Below, in pieces: positions 9,462-62,513 of a stretch of DNA of 64,000 nucleotides. The stretch covers positions 1,116,001-1,180,000 of the forward strand of contig NZ_CP079800.1 in the NCBI RefSeq assembly GCF_028869115.1, read 5' to 3'. Within the stretch, counting starts at the first letter, position 1. Each line of letters starts with the position of its first letter. The notes beneath the pieces were generated by a model. The model worked only from the letters and a program-made list of their open reading frames with translations, was not told the origin of the DNA and did not search any database. The position numbers were made by a program, and so were the translations under genes. The DNA comes from Pseudemcibacter aquimaris. Its GTDB lineage: Bacteria; Pseudomonadota; Alphaproteobacteria; Sphingomonadales; Emcibacteraceae.

Positions 9462-10106
9462 ATGCAATTTGATCTTGTAATATTTGATTGTGACGGTGTG
9501 TTGGTTGATAGTGAGCCGATCGCCAATGTACTGCTTCGTGATGCGCTTGCGGAACATGGGCTTGATATGACGGTTGAACGGGTCATTGATACCTATGTGG
9601 GGCGTTCAATGGCGGCAGTTGTTAGTATTTCAGAAGAAATGCTGGGATCAAAATTACCGGATGATTTTCTGGACGTATTGCAAGAAAAAACATTCGCCGC
9701 TTTTGAGCGTGAATTAAAAGCGGTGGATGGCATCGAAGATGTGCTTCTAGAACTTAAAAGGCGTGATGTTCAATTTTGTGTGGCGTCCAGCGGCAGTTTT
9801 GAAAAAATGGATAAAACACTTGGGATTACGGGGCTAAAGCAATATTTCGGTGATCGCATTTATAATTCATCACAAGTAAAACGCGGAAAGCCATATCCTG
9901 ATTTATTCCTTTATGCAGCGAACCAAATGAGTGTTGAGCCCGCACGGTGCCTGCTTATTGAAGATAGCATACCTGGCGTTCAAGGTGGTGTTGCGGCCGG
10001 GATGGAGGTCATGGCCTATAGCACGCGAAATAAATGTGAAGACCTTAAAAAAGCAGGCGGCCTAGTGATCAATGATATGCGCGCCATTCTAAATCATATT
10101 TCATAA
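9462..10106 (+). CDS. HAD-superfamily phosphatase, beta-phosphoglucomutase-like
   Basis: Small-molecule phosphatase or phosphomutase of HAD subfamily IA. Catalytic motifs are all present: DCDGVLVDSE (nucleophile and acid Asp at residues 9 and 11), the Ser in motif II (ASSGSF), the Lys in KRGKPYPDLF, and the acidic pair in IEDSIPGVQGG. A helical cap domain lies between motifs I and II. Length is 214 aa. The substrate cannot be named from sequence. It starts 3 bp after the aminotransferase stop and is probably translationally coupled to it. Its stop codon overlaps the U-tract of the minus-strand terminator of the small RNA that follows, so the two transcription units converge tightly here. Confidence 0.82.
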   Translation: MQFDLVIFDCDGVLVDSEPIANVLLRDALAEHGLDMTVERVIDTYVGRSMAAVVSISEEMLGSKLPDDFLDVLQEKTFAAFERELKAVDGIEDVLLELKRRDVQFCVASSGSFEKMDKTLGITGLKQYFGDRIYNSSQVKRGKPYPDLFLYAANQMSVEPARCLLIEDSIPGVQGGVAAGMEVMAYSTRNKCEDLKKAGGLVINDMRAILNHIS

Positions 10107-10134
10107 AAAAATGCCGGGTAACAAGTACCCGGCA
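10105..10134 (-). terminator. Rho-independent terminator of small RNA copy 1
   Basis: Stem of 8 bp (TGCCGGGT at 10112-10119, ACCCGGCA at 10127-10134), loop of 7 nt, then seven U on the minus strand (10111-10105). It overlaps the stop codon of the convergent HAD gene. There is no U-tract on the plus strand, so it is directional. Confidence 0.9.
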
Positions 10135-10226
10135 AGTTCACAAAATATAGGGAGGTTTCATATCTTGGGGGAGAATATGAAACAAGCGGTGGACGATAAA
10201 GGGGGAGGAAACGCCCGCCGCGAACT
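10105..10226 (-). ncRNA. Small RNA with two C-rich hairpin loops, copy 1 (cuckoo/ar14/CcsR-like)
   Basis: Predicted transcript of about 120 nt on the minus strand. From 5' to 3' it has hairpin B (stem 221-212/195-186, one mismatch) with loop UUUCCUCCCCCUUUAU, hairpin A (9-bp perfect stem GTTTCATAT/ATATGAAAC at 10183-10175/10163-10155) with loop UCUCCCCCAAG, a short linker, then a terminator stem TGCCGGGT/ACCCGGCA and seven U. Two hairpins showing CCUCC-type anti-Shine-Dalgarno loops followed by a terminator are the architecture of the alphaproteobacterial ar14/CcsR 'cuckoo' RNAs, known to pair with ribosome-binding sites. A sigma70-like promoter ends 6 bp before the predicted 5' end. Class membership is inferred by eye, not by covariance search. 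Confidence 0.72.
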
Positions 10227-10231
10227 GAATA

Positions 10232-10260
10232 ATTAAAGAACCATTCAGGATGTCTATCAA
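10232..10260 (-). promoter_or_regulatory. Promoter of small RNA copy 1
   Basis: Minus-strand TTGATA (10260-10255) and TTTAAT (10237-10232) with a 17-bp spacer. The predicted transcript start near 10226 fits an RNA of about 120 nt. The element is conserved in the second copy, and a dyad GATGT-N6-ACATC overlaps the -35 box. Confidence 0.65.
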
Positions 10261-10324
10261 CATCTGATTACCGTTATAGCCAAATCCTTGATGCATGAGT
10301 AGTGCATAAAATGTCGTTGCAGCT

Positions 10325-10339
10325 ATGCAAGAAATGCAT
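10325..10339. promoter_or_regulatory. Palindrome ATGCA-N5-TGCAT upstream of small RNA copy 1
   Basis: Perfect 5+5 dyad whose edge lies 64 bp beyond the -35 box of copy 1. The same dyad occurs at the same distance in copy 2. It is a candidate binding site for an unidentified activator. Confidence 0.45.
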
Positions 10340-10365
10340 GCATTGTTACAAAAATGTGAAACGCC

Positions 10366-10397
10366 AAAAAAAAATGCCGGGTAACAAGTACCCGGCA
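10366..10397 (-). terminator. Rho-independent terminator of small RNA copy 2
   Basis: Same 8-bp stem and 7-nt loop as the copy 1 terminator (10375-10382 with 10390-10397), followed on the minus strand by nine U (10374-10366). It separates copy 2 from the promoter of copy 1. Confidence 0.9.
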
Positions 10398-10491
10398 AGT
10401 TCACAAAATATAGGGAGGTTTCATATCTTGGGGGAGAATATGAAACAGGCGGTGGACGAAAAGGGGGAGGATACGTCCCACCGCAGAGCTG
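10366..10491 (-). ncRNA. Small RNA with two C-rich hairpin loops, copy 2 (tandem paralogue)
   Basis: Tandem paralogue 263-266 bp upstream (in minus-strand sense) of copy 1, with the same order: hairpin B (GCGGTGGGACG pairing with CGTCCACCGC, one bulged G) with loop UAUCCUCCCCCUUUU, hairpin A with loop UCUCCCCCAAG, and terminator stem TGCCGGGT/ACCCGGCA followed by nine U. Between the copies the 3' 90 nt are almost identical, while hairpin B differs in sequence but keeps pairing and loop motif, which supports a selected RNA structure. It has its own promoter and terminator. A plus-strand ORF through it (51 codons, from ATG 10440) is interrupted in copy 1 and is considered fortuitous. Confidence 0.72.
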
Positions 10492-10496
10492 AAATA

Positions 10497-10526
10497 ATTA
10501 AAGAATTACTCAGCGATGTTTCTCAA
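10497..10526 (-). promoter_or_regulatory. Promoter of small RNA copy 2
   Basis: Minus-strand TTGAGA (10526-10521) and TTTAAT (10502-10497) with an 18-bp spacer, aligned with the promoter of copy 1. A perfect dyad GATGTT-N4-AACATC overlaps the -35 box. Confidence 0.62.
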
Positions 10527-10590
10527 CATCTGATTATGGTTATAGATGATTGTTTCAGGAATGAGTACTGGGTAAAATGTTGTTGCAGGC

Positions 10591-10605
10591 ATGCAAAAAA
10601 TGCAT
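10591..10605. promoter_or_regulatory. Palindrome ATGCA-N5-TGCAT upstream of small RNA copy 2
   Basis: Same dyad as at 10325-10339, with five A as spacer, again 64 bp beyond the -35 box. Retention in both copies suggests function, though recent duplication could also explain it. Confidence 0.45.
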
Positions 10606-10643
10606 AGCTAGTGTCTTAATTTAACCATATTGTTCTAAAATGA

Positions 10644-11528
10644 TTAGAAGATCGACTTCTTGAATTCTCTCACAATGAAATCTTTAAAAGCAGCAATACG
10701 TTTAGAATTCCTAAGTTCCTGAGTATAAACGAAATATGCAGGGAATTCGTGGCTTTCATATTCTTCGAGAACAGGTGTGATGTTCATTGATCCTTGCACC
10801 AGATAATCCGGTAAAGAACCAATGCCAATGCCTGATTTCACCGCTTGCAGCATGCCATAAATACTGTTTATTTCTAAAACAGGTTTACGTTTTTTATTTG
10901 TGCCATAATCAAGAATCCAGTCAATGTCTTCGATGGGGCTGGTTGATTTACTGCCATATGTAATCAAGTCATGATCATCCAGGTCTTCCGGTCTTTGGGG
11001 TCTGCCGTATTTATTAAGATAGCTGGGCGATGCAAACAAATGATAATGAAATGTTGCGACCTGTTTCTGAATAAGATCTAAATGTTCGGTCGGGTGAAAG
11101 CGAATTGCAACATCGGCTTCGCGTGTTAAAAGATCATAATCCTGGTCACCAACCAGCATTTGAACATCAATATCGGGGTATTTATCAATGAATTTTTTGA
11201 TGTTATGCATCATCCATGTGGAACCGAAACTGGATGTGGTTGTGATTTTTAATTTACCACGTGGTGATTCTGTTCCTTCAAGGATTTTTTGTTCCGTTAC
11301 ATGAATCTTAGAAACCACATCTTTGGTGGTTTCAAACAGGGTTTCCCCTTCATCAGTAAGGATCAATCCCCGCGCATGGCGATTAAACAGTGATGTTTGA
11401 AGACTGTCTTCAAGTGTTCTGATTTGGCGGCTGACGGCGGATTGGCTAAGGCCCAGTGTTTCACCCGCGTGGGTGAAGCTTCCAGCAGAAGCAACTGTGT
11501 GAAAAATCCTTAGCTTATCCCAGTCCAT
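10644..11528 (-). CDS. LysR-family transcriptional regulator
   Basis: DNA-binding regulator of 294 aa. The N-terminal winged helix-turn-helix (residues about 3-62) reads DKLRIFHTVASAGSFTHAG followed by LGLSQSAVSRQIRTLE, the usual LysR pattern. The C-terminal periplasmic-binding-like effector domain (about 90-290) starts at PRGKLKITTTSSFG. The effector and targets are unknown. The gene lies 31 bp downstream of trxB on the same strand and probably shares its transcript, an association common in alphaproteobacteria. Unlike many LysR genes it is not divergent from an obvious target. The small RNA pair lies immediately downstream. Confidence 0.88.
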   Translation of the reverse strand: MDWDKLRIFHTVASAGSFTHAGETLGLSQSAVSRQIRTLEDSLQTSLFNRHARGLILTDEGETLFETTKDVVSKIHVTEQKILEGTESPRGKLKITTTSSFGSTWMMHNIKKFIDKYPDIDVQMLVGDQDYDLLTREADVAIRFHPTEHLDLIQKQVATFHYHLFASPSYLNKYGRPQRPEDLDDHDLITYGSKSTSPIEDIDWILDYGTNKKRKPVLEINSIYGMLQAVKSGIGIGSLPDYLVQGSMNITPVLEEYESHEFPAYFVYTQELRNSKRIAAFKDFIVREFKKSIF

Positions 11529-11559: not shown

Positions 11560-12507
11560 TTATTCGTTTTCAGCAATAAAACGTTCTGCTTCAAGTGCAG
11601 CCATACAACCCATACCCGCTGCCGTAACGGCCTGACGGTATTTTTCATCGGTTACGTCACCCGCTGCGTATACGCCGGGAACATTTGTTTCCGTGCTATC
11701 TGGTGCAGTGTTAATGTAACCACGTTCATTTATATCAACTTTTCCAGCAAAAAGCGATGTTGCAGGTGCATGACCAATGGCAATAAAGACACCGTGCGCA
11801 GAAATTTCACTAATTTCATCTGTTTTTACGTTTTTAACGCGAACACCGGTGACGCCACCCATAGGTCCTTCTTCGCCCACGATTTCTTCTAGCTGGCTAT
11901 CCCAAACACATTCGATTTTGTCGTTGGCGAAAAGACGGTCTTGCAGAATTTTTTCTGATCTTAACTCATCACGGCGGTGAATGAGGGTCACTTTTGACGC
12001 AAAATTGGTAAGGAAGATTGCTTCTTCCACAGCAGTATTACCGCCGCCAACAACAATAACTTCTTTACCACGGTAAAAGAAACCGTCGCATGTGGCACAC
12101 GCTGATACACCACGGCCTTGGAATTCTTCTTCTGATGGAAGCCCGAGCCATTTTGCCTGTGCCCCAGTGGCAATAACGACTGTATCACCAATATATGTAT
12201 CACCACTGTCACCCTTACAGACAAATGGGCGTTTTGAAAAATCGACGTCTGTGATGAAATCTGTAATGATTGTTGTGTTTACATTTTCTGCTTGTGCCTT
12301 CATTTGTTCCATAAGCCATGGCCCTTGGATGGCCTCGGCAAAACCAGGATAGTTTTCCACATCTGTCGTGATTGTCAGTTGCCCGCCAGGTTCCATACCC
12401 TGCACGATAATAGGTTCAAGGTTTGCGCGTGCTGCGTAAATTGCGGCTGTATAGCCTGCTGGTCCTGATCCGATAATAAGAACTTTGGTTTTATGTTCAG
12501 TGGCCAT
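11560..12507 (-). CDS. trxB: Thioredoxin reductase (NADPH)
   Basis: Homodimeric cytoplasmic flavoprotein that reduces thioredoxin with NADPH. The FAD-binding GSGPAGYTAAIYAAR is at residues 13-27. The redox-active CATC is at 137-140, inside the NADPH domain that begins near GKEVIVVGGGNTAVEEA. The C-terminal FAD motif is GVYAAGDVTDEKYRQAVTAAG. Length 315 aa is typical of the low-molecular-weight type. The ATG follows GGAG at 10 bp. It is followed by the LysR gene in the same orientation; upstream a terminator separates it from the DsbA-M48 unit. Confidence 0.96.
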   Translation of the reverse strand: MATEHKTKVLIIGSGPAGYTAAIYAARANLEPIIVQGMEPGGQLTITTDVENYPGFAEAIQGPWLMEQMKAQAENVNTTIITDFITDVDFSKRPFVCKGDSGDTYIGDTVVIATGAQAKWLGLPSEEEFQGRGVSACATCDGFFYRGKEVIVVGGGNTAVEEAIFLTNFASKVTLIHRRDELRSEKILQDRLFANDKIECVWDSQLEEIVGEEGPMGGVTGVRVKNVKTDEISEISAHGVFIAIGHAPATSLFAGKVDINERGYINTAPDSTETNVPGVYAAGDVTDEKYRQAVTAAGMGCMAALEAERFIAENE

Positions 12508-62258: not shown

Positions 62259-62513
62259 ATGTCAGAAAAAATGCACAACTTACAAGATGCCTTTCTAAAC
62301 CATGTCCGTAAAAACAAAACGCCAATTACCGTTTTCCTTGTTAATGGGGTTAAGCTTCAGGGAATTATTACGTGGTTTGACAATTTCTGTATTTTGCTTC
62401 GCCGTGATTCAAATGTTCAATTGGTTTATAAGCATGCGATTTCAACAATCATGCCTGGGGGTCCAATTAATCTATTTGACGGTGATGAAGAGGGGACACT
62501 TGATGGGGAGTAA
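62259..62513 (+). CDS. hfq: RNA chaperone Hfq
   Basis: Sm-like hexameric chaperone of 84 aa that pairs small RNAs with mRNAs. Sm1 is [24 protein letters not shown], and Sm2 is the family-diagnostic [10 protein letters not shown]. The N-terminal [16 protein letters not shown] carries the rim Arg. The C-terminal tail is short and acidic (about 15 residues), as in alphaproteobacteria. It begins a unit with hflX, 12 bp downstream. It is the probable partner for the candidate small RNAs at 10 and 43 kb, although ar14/CcsR-type dependence on Hfq varies. Confidence 0.97.

Follow-up and report, generated by a model that had tools for sequence, protein, structure and literature searches.

The window, by which we mean the whole 64-kb stretch of DNA analysed here, carries on its minus strand a thioredoxin reductase gene (trxB, 11560..12507; 418 bits against TIGR01292, cut-off 343), followed by the gene of a LysR-type regulator (10644..11528), of which trxB is the 5' partner, and by two colinear units with a spacing of 263–266 bp, the second of which meets a convergent HAD gene (9462-10106). 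The initial annotation had taken these units, at about 265 bp each, for alphaproteobacterial small RNAs whose CUCC loops are of the anti-Shine-Dalgarno type, from a lineage that may lack described examples. This much stands. The copies are 96% identical over 117 nt and 100% identical over 73 alignment columns running from the fourth hairpin to the terminator, both have loops with CCUCCCCC and CUCCCCC, and we found no described examples of such sRNAs in this lineage in the literature. The order trxB-lysR-sRNA-sRNA corresponds to the trxB-lsrB-abcR1-abcR2 order of rhizobia, as given in the available text of PMC7486931. The class-wide conservation of this gene order has already been published, in two papers.

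Judged from their sequence, the two units are predicted RNA genes, with an anatomy other than the one first described: instead of 120–125 nt and three hairpins, the model gives RNAs of 162–167 nt and five hairpins (SL1 to SL5). Copy B, which adjoins lysR, would run from 10532 to 10366 (~166 nt) and copy A from 10266 to 10105 (~162 nt), both on the minus strand. In 5' to 3' order, copy B comprises SL1 (10515..10530), SL2 (10488..10514), SL3 (10449..10484, loop with CCUCCCCC at 10463-10470), SL4 (10418..10446, with CUCCCCC at 10430-10436 on the loop side), the mostly single-stranded CCUCCCUAUAUUUUGUGAACU (10398..10418), which holds the third CUCC motif and an A/U-rich stretch 5' of the terminator, and the intrinsic terminator SL5 with its T9 tract (10366..10397). 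The same elements of copy A are SL1 (10249..10264), SL2 (10225..10248), SL3 (10186..10221, CCUCCCCC at 10201-10208), SL4 (10155..10183, CUCCCCC at 10167-10173 on the loop side), the likewise mostly single-stranded CCUCCCUAUAUUUUGUGAACU (10135..10155), and SL5 with T7 (10105..10134), which overlaps the stop codon of the HAD gene. The terminator hairpin is the same in both units, as initially described with its U tract, except that the stem has 9 bp rather than 8, with a 5-nt loop followed by 7 or 9 T.

The change in length comes from the promoter. The hexamers of the TTGAnA-N17/18-TTTAAT promoter put forward by the initial annotation are present (TTGAGA at 10521-10526 and TTTAAT at 10497-10502 in copy B, with N18; TTGATA at 10255-10260 and TTTAAT at 10232-10237 in copy A, with N17), but they lie within SL1 and SL2, and other genera replace them while the pairing stays. 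What is invariant is the TATA of a TATAAC −10 element (10539..10544 in copy B, 10273..10278 in copy A), found in 13 of 13 rows of the genus alignment and 16 of 16 rows of the family alignment, the latter excluding locus L048, whose RNA lies ~1.2 kb downstream of lysR. This location puts the starts 40–42 nt upstream of those first proposed, hence the predicted RNAs of 162–167 nt with five hairpins. Counted from each predicted start, a box of the form ATGC-N7-GCAT occupies about −73 to −59 (10591..10605 in copy B, 10325..10339 in copy A). We regard TATAAC with this box at −73 as a likelier promoter than TTGAnA/TTTAAT, and the promoters and lengths given initially are probably wrong. The −10 is good and the −35, by eye, poor; a general promoter scan listed neither the TATAAC promoters nor the earlier ones, and its count (3 versus 2.5 ± 1.8 in shuffles) was not above chance. 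Both copies keep the same box and −10, so the divergent control that had been considered for them is not suggested.

The predicted structure is conserved. The folds have z-scores of −7.6 (copy B) and −6.8 (copy A), and none of 200 shuffles was equally good. We counted covariation on 13 and 14 of 35 family RNAs, leaving out the 8 most divergent because a plain alignment misplaces their SL2/SL3. The 13 genus sequences have 92.1% of cells paired and 10 pairs changed on both sides (shuffle mean 4.3, with 0 of 500 shuffles reaching 10; slid controls 1–5), and the 14 family sequences have 96.2% and 11 (shuffle 5.8). Among 86 class-level sequences, in an alignment fitted to the model, 87.8% of cells are paired and 27 of 27 pairs are doubly changed (slid controls 14–16). 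SL3, whose sequence differs between the copies, retains its pairing and loop, as the initial annotation had noticed, and both the folds and the genus covariation bear this out. The SL1 loop is GAGA or GAUA in the window and the whole hairpin reads, for example, GAUGUUGC-GAC-GCAGCAUC outside the genus. We rejected a universal SL1: among the 86 class hits, 15 have the strict form GAUGYUGC-N3-GCRRCAUC and 38 show a simple hairpin at the 5' end. SL1 can thus be relied upon in this family and some others, but not throughout the class. The SL2 loop, CUUU in copy B, holds CUCCC in 19 of 22 RNAs from other genera (counted by eye). In minimum free energy folds, only 39% of the CUCC in the class hits and 60% of that in the 35 family RNAs is unpaired, and 44 of the 86 class hits have none in a hairpin loop; such motif counts among model hits are biased, since the models were trained on RNAs of this kind. 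RNAalifold on the 35 family RNAs retained only SL3–SL5. These RNAs (alignment A3) were picked by a pattern demanding the CCUCCCUAUAU stretch and the terminator, and the invariance of CCUCCCUAUAU in alignments A3–A5 is thus partly selection. The genus and family alignments of the regions downstream of lysR (13 and 16 rows) had no such selection for CCUCCCUAUAU; nor were they selected for CCUCCCUAUAUUUUGUGAACU, which is nearly invariant in them and whose A/U-rich stretch may, by analogy with AbcR, be an Hfq site.

The regulator next door is, by its sequence matches, an ortholog of LsrB/VtlR. Its best PDB match is 9HH1, the LsrB of A. tumefaciens (1.2e-79, next 1.5e-31), and the reverse search confirms the two as reciprocal best matches (1.2e-80, next 5.3e-26). 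The gene directly upstream of lysR is trxB in 141 of 164 class-level loci. Work on LsrB in rhizobia has dealt with symbiosis, virulence and redox sensing, and a recent paper, in its available part, terms it unique to Rhizobiales (PMC11975290). The window's protein has no cysteine at all, and the redox-active C144 and C273 of A. tumefaciens LsrB align with its V140 and V267, so that a thiol switch as in rhizobia cannot be its signal.

The ATGC-N7-GCAT box is of the type bound by LsrB/VtlR in rhizobia, according to the portions of that literature available to us. Published sites include one at −61 to −49 of PabcR1, whose RNA has anti-Shine-Dalgarno motifs (excerpt of PMC8844928), and a TGCA-N6-GCAT motif in PnfeR1 (excerpt of PMC10746234). 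The exact box occurs in 22 of 28 family loci, 19 of 40 other loci of the order and 83 of 157 distinct class-level loci, versus 0.3, 0.5 and 1.0 in shuffles and at most 3 with other spacers; within 300 nt it is missing from 21 of the 40 order loci and 74 of the 157 class-level loci. The class-level set (L103–L266) includes repeats of the same locus, leaving 153–157 distinct ones, as well as a few loci from the window's own family and order (e.g. L107, L109, L133, L134). Where hits of our covariance model R1 have a box nearby, it is at −70 to −75 in 37 of 71; for 19 of 90 distinct hits no exact box is close by. Of 10 additional or paralogous copies in the family, nine carry the box between −70 and −72, and the second tandem copy of one relative (L023) is without it. 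The published short form GCAT-N3-TG is found in 45 of 153 loci (13.0 in shuffles), and in 27 (3.2 in shuffles) when the −N3-T is included. The palindrome is a sharper form than GCAT-N3-TG. The GCAT-N3-TG-N3 part of the copy B box extends to 10582, and both copies have −N3-C instead of the −N3-T of the published rule. The AbcR2 of S. meliloti is driven by RpoH1, and adjacency alone is therefore no proof of control by LsrB. With box, spacing and orthology taken together, the regulator encoded next door probably switches both sRNA genes on.

The RNA family adjoins a LysR regulator in many Alphaproteobacteria, well beyond rhizobia, as far as covariance searches can tell. Model R2, built with the window's genus left out, matches copy B from end to end (10367-10532, E = 4.4e-27) and copy A over 10104-10266 (E = 1e-27), with no further match in the 64-kb window. 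At E ≤ 0.01 it gave 59 hits in 56 of 80 class-level lysR loci, chosen by hand among those listed, mostly one per family and with some loci at contig ends skipped; the RNA was undetected in the other 24. All 59 hits are on the lysR strand, none on the opposite one, and 57 lie within 450 nt downstream. A search of 190 whole class genomes with stricter filters found the RNA in 65 (72 hits, including the two in the window) and not in the remaining 125; among 57 hits in genomes with a known lysR position, 44 (again with the window's two) are at most 1 kb downstream on the lysR strand. R1 at E ≤ 0.01 hit 39/83, 43/80 and 12/42 in three source sets. One match list used in the analysis comprised the best 80 of 586 matches.

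No Rfam model reached its gathering cut-off in the 64-kb window or in 16 named lysR loci, Oricola included. The ar15, ar14 (RF02344) and CcsR (RF02791) models had no match in 9601-11200 even at E ≤ 10, which speaks against the ar14/CcsR membership initially proposed. The best sub-threshold match is SorX (RF02784), with 27.0 and 24.2 bits here and up to 42.6 bits in other lysR loci (cut-off 46.6); those to ylbH, Hrs12, Esr41, suhB and others were judged to be chance or a shared terminator. Across 190 class genomes ar15 had no match, yet no control matched either, and in 11 chosen genomes it matched 6 at E ≤ 1 (best 4.7e-4), none above cut-off, as did 8 of 14 controls. The ar14 model matched 25 of 385 class genomes at E ≤ 0.01, none above cut-off, and had no match in the window's own genome. 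The one indirect support for the ar14 idea is the lysR-linked RNA of Oricola (L176), at the same place, with 49.4 bits against ar14 (E = 1.2e-7, cut-off 58.8) and 33.4 against CcsR1; that R1 and R2 both fail to find this RNA counts against it.

It is location and promoter that place the window's sRNAs: the arrangement trxB-lsrB-box-sRNA is that of AbcR1, and the box is found with NfeR1 too. Like AbcR1/AbcR2 (ar15, RF02345; Sinorhizobium, Agrobacterium, Brucella), they are tandem and directly 3' of trxB-lsrB/vtlR, as in S. meliloti and A. tumefaciens; they have CUCC anti-Shine-Dalgarno stretches, an A/U-rich site and a U-tailed terminator, and an LsrB box whose position (about −62 to −50) is close to that in the AbcR1 promoter as available. 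AbcR differs in having three hairpins, 114–121 nt and CUCCUCCC in its 5' loop, a cognate model (ar15) that does not match the window's RNAs, arsR rather than a HAD gene as neighbour, and in S. meliloti an RpoH1-driven AbcR2, whereas both window copies keep the LsrB box. NfeR1, which we take to be ar14, is activated by LsrB from a similar box and shares the several redundant anti-Shine-Dalgarno motifs; its hairpins differ in number and order. The CcsR1-4 (cuckoo) RNAs are alphaproteobacterial and have CCUCC loops and several tandem copies, but are cut from one DUF1127-linked transcript with an RpoHI/II promoter, whereas in the window each copy comes with a box, a −10 and a terminator of its own, and no DUF1127 gene is among the four neighbouring genes or the two ORFs that cover the units. 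SorX has a similar 3' module, CCUCCCU followed by the GCCGGG terminator, and derives from the 3' UTR of an ompR-like gene instead of from an LsrB-box promoter.

The SorX likeness suggests one other origin, in which copy B (and A) would be cut by RNase E from lysR read-through, in the way that SorX arises from the RSP_0847 transcript. The lysR stop lies 38 nt from the copy B box and a terminator scan found nothing in between, so read-through could also yield copy B. We nevertheless think this improbable as the main source: box and −10 at near-fixed spacing argue for an own promoter, and the spacing holds for family copies without a LysR match within 1.5 kb, although the two sources may coexist. 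More doubtful still are two ar14/CcsR RNAs of ~120-125 nt with TTGAnA-TTTAAT sigma-70 promoters. The existing hexamers, the CUCC loops, the ar14-like RNA of Oricola and the good folds of the short RNAs on their own (z −6.7 and −6.2) all fit them; the hexamers' lack of conservation outside the genus, the conserved TATA and box further upstream, and the lack of any ar14 or CcsR match at E ≤ 10 do not.

The plus strand could also be the functional one, carrying either a small protein gene or a GGA-rich RNA that titrates a protein like CsrA, given that the complement has GGGAGG in loops and that a 101-aa ORF crosses copy B. The T tract of the terminator, the −10 and the box are nonetheless all on the minus strand, all 59 class-level R2 hits are on that of lysR, and the 101-aa ORF has no Pfam family above cut-off. 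The initial annotation had named a conserved plus-strand protein as what would tell against its RNAs; among 11 relatives in the genus, the 340 nt that follow lysR hold a plus-strand ORF of at least 50 aa in two (L037 and L041, with 52 and 62 aa) and none in the other nine. We consider a plus-strand function very unlikely indeed.

The best reading is that the units are a distinct and widespread variety of the LsrB-activated, AbcR/NfeR1-type CUCC sRNAs, and we are fairly confident that they are tandem copies of one such trans-acting, anti-Shine-Dalgarno sRNA gene of the rhizobial kind (AbcR1, NfeR1). The LsrB/VtlR-type protein would bind ATGC-N7-GCAT and recruit RNA polymerase to the sigma-70 promoter. 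The folded transcript would offer three CUCC stretches; in the family's other genera, most RNAs have one more in the SL2 loop. Hfq, encoded far away in the window (62280..62468, plus strand; PF17209, 109.9 bits), is a candidate partner that would bind the A/U-rich site 5' of the U-tailed terminator. The CUCC stretches may then base-pair with mRNAs at the ribosome binding site and keep them from being translated, the targets probably being transport and metabolic genes; AbcR represses ABC-transporter mRNAs through such pairing. CUCC fits any strong Shine-Dalgarno sequence, and particular targets thus cannot be named. Two copies may provide more RNA per regulator or, through the diverged SL1–SL3, modestly different targets.

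This extends the RNA and its switch beyond rhizobia and adds a box-driven family with its own covariance model, which sits behind lysR in many families where we saw no Rfam model reach its cut-off. The family often adjoins a cysteine-free LsrB, which raises the testable question of whether the core job of LsrB is to drive one conserved base-pairing RNA. Somewhat short of an even chance, in our estimate, LsrB and a box-fired CUCC sRNA form an ancestral alphaproteobacterial unit, with AbcR, NfeR1/ar14 and perhaps CcsR/SorX as later offshoots; the thiol redox switch that LsrB is known for would be a later addition in some lineages because many members in the class, the window's included, lack any cysteine. 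Loci with one, two or three copies provide a natural series for the study of sRNA duplication.

Two small RNA units, copy A (10105-10266) and copy B (10366-10532), occupy the minus strand, with a HAD phosphatase gene (9462-10106, plus strand) converging on them from one side and a LysR-type regulator gene (10644-11528, minus strand) on the other; upstream of the latter, in the same orientation, is trxB (11560-12507, minus). The same 64-kb window encodes hfq (62280-62468, plus). Used as a DNA query against its own genome (3.37 Mb, one contig) at E≤1, copy A matched both units and nothing else. We aligned the stretch 3' of lysR from 11 genus relatives and, separately, from 15 of 16 loci of the family's other genera. 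In both alignments, conservation begins farther upstream than the units of ~120-125 nt proposed by the initial annotation, which captured the 3' two thirds of the RNA and missed the upstream part. The conserved order is an ATGCRN5YGCAT-type palindrome, ~45 nt, TATA, CAGATG, and a first hairpin, with the TATA invariant in 13/13 rows of the genus alignment and 16/16 of the other. The TTGAnA and TTTAAT hexamers previously taken for promoters fall inside SL1 and SL2, respectively, and in other genera they are replaced while the pairing is kept. For this reason, the window RNAs are likely 162-167 nt each, and may be trimmed by processing to a shorter form. A promoter scan of the window supported neither the hexamers nor the upstream TATA promoter.

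In copy B, SL1 folds as GAUGUU-GAGA-AACAUC (one example from other genera is GAUGUUGC-GAC-GCAGCAUC). SL2 of the window RNAs folds as GCUGAGUAAUU-CUUU-AAUUAUUUCAGC, and 19 of the 22 RNAs of other genera, counted by eye, have CUCCC within its loop. The SL3 loop of the window RNAs contains CCUCCCCC, and SL4 carries CUCCCCC and is followed by CCUCCCUAUAUUUUGUGAACU, mostly single-stranded, and then by the terminator. We scored predetermined structures on plain MAFFT alignments of a genus set (13 of 35 RNAs) and a family set (14 of 35); neither count includes the 8 RNAs that diverge most. The genus set had 92.1% of cells paired and 10 doubly changed pairs, which none of 500 shuffles equalled; shifting partners by 1-3 columns left 33-48% paired and 1-5 doubly changed. 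The family set gave 96.2% and 11 (slid partners: 33-45% and 1-5). By the measure of further pair types, neither set stood out from shuffles (145/500 as high for the genus, 370/500 for the family). A covariance model trained on nothing but the family set (R2), to which the window and its genus contribute no sequence, matched the window only at 10104-10266 (E 1e-27) and 10367-10532 (E 4e-27), both full length. An alignment of 86 hits showed double changes in 27/27 pairs (463 cells, versus 126 in shuffles and 67-141 with slid partners), the alignment itself being fitted to the covariance model.

The regulator is an ortholog of LsrB. Its best PDB match is 9HH1 (1.2e-79; next structure 1.5e-31), the LsrB of A. 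tumefaciens (PMC11975290), and the reverse search with the 9HH1 chain returned the window gene at 1.2e-80 (runner-up 5.3e-26). LsrB has been called unique to Rhizobiales (PMC11975290), which disagrees with our searches: 224 of 385 class genomes encode this LysR at E≤1e-60. Conservation in many Alphaproteobacteria was already stated (PMC7486931). We assembled 164 class-level loci, some repeated (80 from the best 80 of 586 matches, 84 from class genomes); trxB is directly upstream on the same strand in 141. LsrB is a known thiol redox sensor, whereas the window ortholog has no cysteine at all, with valines aligned to C144 and C273. The aligned region is cysteine-free in 26/28 family, 9/40 rest-of-order, and 106/164 class-level proteins. 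A cysteine occupies the C144 place in 13/164 class-level proteins and the C273 place in 2/164. Given these counts together, the LsrB redox switch, as described, cannot be general.

LsrB is reported to bind and activate PabcR1 through a box GCAT-N3-TG-N3-T at -61 to -49 (PMC8844928) and PnfeR1 through TGCA-N6-GCAT (PMC10746234), and VtlR to activate abcR1 in A. tumefaciens, where the order is trxB-vtlR-abcR1-abcR2 (PMC7486931). The corresponding box, ATGC-N7-GCAT, occurs within 300 nt past the lysR stop in 22/28 family loci, 19/40 loci of the order's other families, and 83/157 distinct class-level loci (dinucleotide shuffles: 0.3, 0.5, and 1.0). With the spacer changed to 3-6 or 8-12, the count never exceeded 3 in either the order or the class set. 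The window's own GCAT half begins at about -62, counted from the start inferred from the -10. Five family copies lacking a LysR gene within 1.5 kb (L015, L016, L017, L022, L024), each a second sRNA copy of its genome, have the box at -71 or -72, and it precedes 9 of the 10 extra or paralogous family copies checked. The box-less one, a second tandem copy (L023:1418-1574), resembles in that respect AbcR2 of S. meliloti, reported as RpoH1-dependent (PMC8844928), and might have a promoter of another sigma type.

RNA structure, box, -10, spacing, synteny, LysR orthology, and the hfq gene are established here. In the mechanism we propose, LysR would bind the box and activate the sRNA, Hfq would bind the latter at its A/U-rich stretch and U tail, and the CUCC stretches would base-pair with ribosome binding sites. 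A third extended box (GCTATGCATTTTTTGCATGCCTG) is found at G000:C1:2793530-2793545 (minus strand; locus L297), with a TATA spacing of 62 versus 61 nt. It precedes an ORF of 86 or 98 aa without Pfam match, whose leader has, by eye, an SL1-like hairpin. This ORF is reminiscent of the small protein genes activated by VtlR in rhizobia and may be a further target of the window LysR.

The model built from all 35 family RNAs (R1) had matches at E≤0.01 in 39/83, 43/80, and 12/42 of the sources searched, including Thalassospira, Azospirillum, Kiloniella, Pelagibius, Nisaea, and Iodidimonas records. Of its 98 matches, 90 are distinct, and every one of these is on the lysR strand. The distance from the lysR match to the start is at most 450 nt for 83, and for 71 the box falls between -200 and +40, in 37 cases at -70 to -75. 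R2 at E≤0.01 matched 56 of 80 chosen class-level lysR loci (59 matches, none on the opposite strand). Across 190 whole class genomes, with no lysR restriction, it gave 72 matches in 65 genomes, the window's two counted, and none in the other 125, the filters of this search being stricter. Among the 57 matches with lysR placed, 44 are within 1 kb downstream on its strand, 5 at 1.8-5.5 kb downstream, and 8 elsewhere; the remaining 15 are in genomes with no listed lysR position.

The kinship with ar14/CcsR in the initial annotation did not emerge from Rfam, which had no match in the window at its cut-offs and, in 9601-11200, none to ar14, ar15, or CcsR at E≤10. The best match there was SorX (27.0 and 24.2 bits; cut-off 46.6), again the top sub-threshold family in 20 class-level loci scanned with cmscan (up to 42.6 bits). 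In position and promoter, the window RNAs correspond to AbcR1; judged by sequence model, they are not ar15. In Oricola nitratireducens, an RNA resembling ar14 and CcsR1 (L176:4992-5125), in which a CCTCCTCCC-type motif occurs three times, lies directly behind lsrB and its box; it scores 49.4 bits for ar14 and 33.4 for CcsR1, both below cut-off, and neither R1 nor R2 detects it. It may connect the AbcR lineage with that of ar14, and it is tempting to see the window RNAs, SorX, ar14, CcsR, and AbcR1 as one lineage. General synteny statements aside, the matches listed in a mainly open-access literature search contained no description of this lysR-box-sRNA arrangement outside rhizobia, nor did the accessible part of an Azospirillum sRNA survey (PMC7685610).

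Identity between copies A and B is 75% in the box-to-start stretch, 74% over SL1-SL3, and complete in the 73 columns spanning SL4 through the terminator. The copy B promoter is up to 88% like the single copies of some sister species and 75% like copy A. Among the 11 genus relatives with matches, only G011 has a second one, a 26-nt stretch; a twelfth (G012) has none. This suggests a pair that predates some of the species splits or, alternatively, faster change in copy A. Because both copies keep box and -10, we expect shared control and a higher dose rather than separate inputs. Elsewhere, one Thalassospira locus (L113) has two copies, and the second copy of L116 is weak (E 0.06). Tandem sRNA triplets, apparently without a box before every copy, are found behind lysR at L166:4973-5639 and L257:2105-2790.
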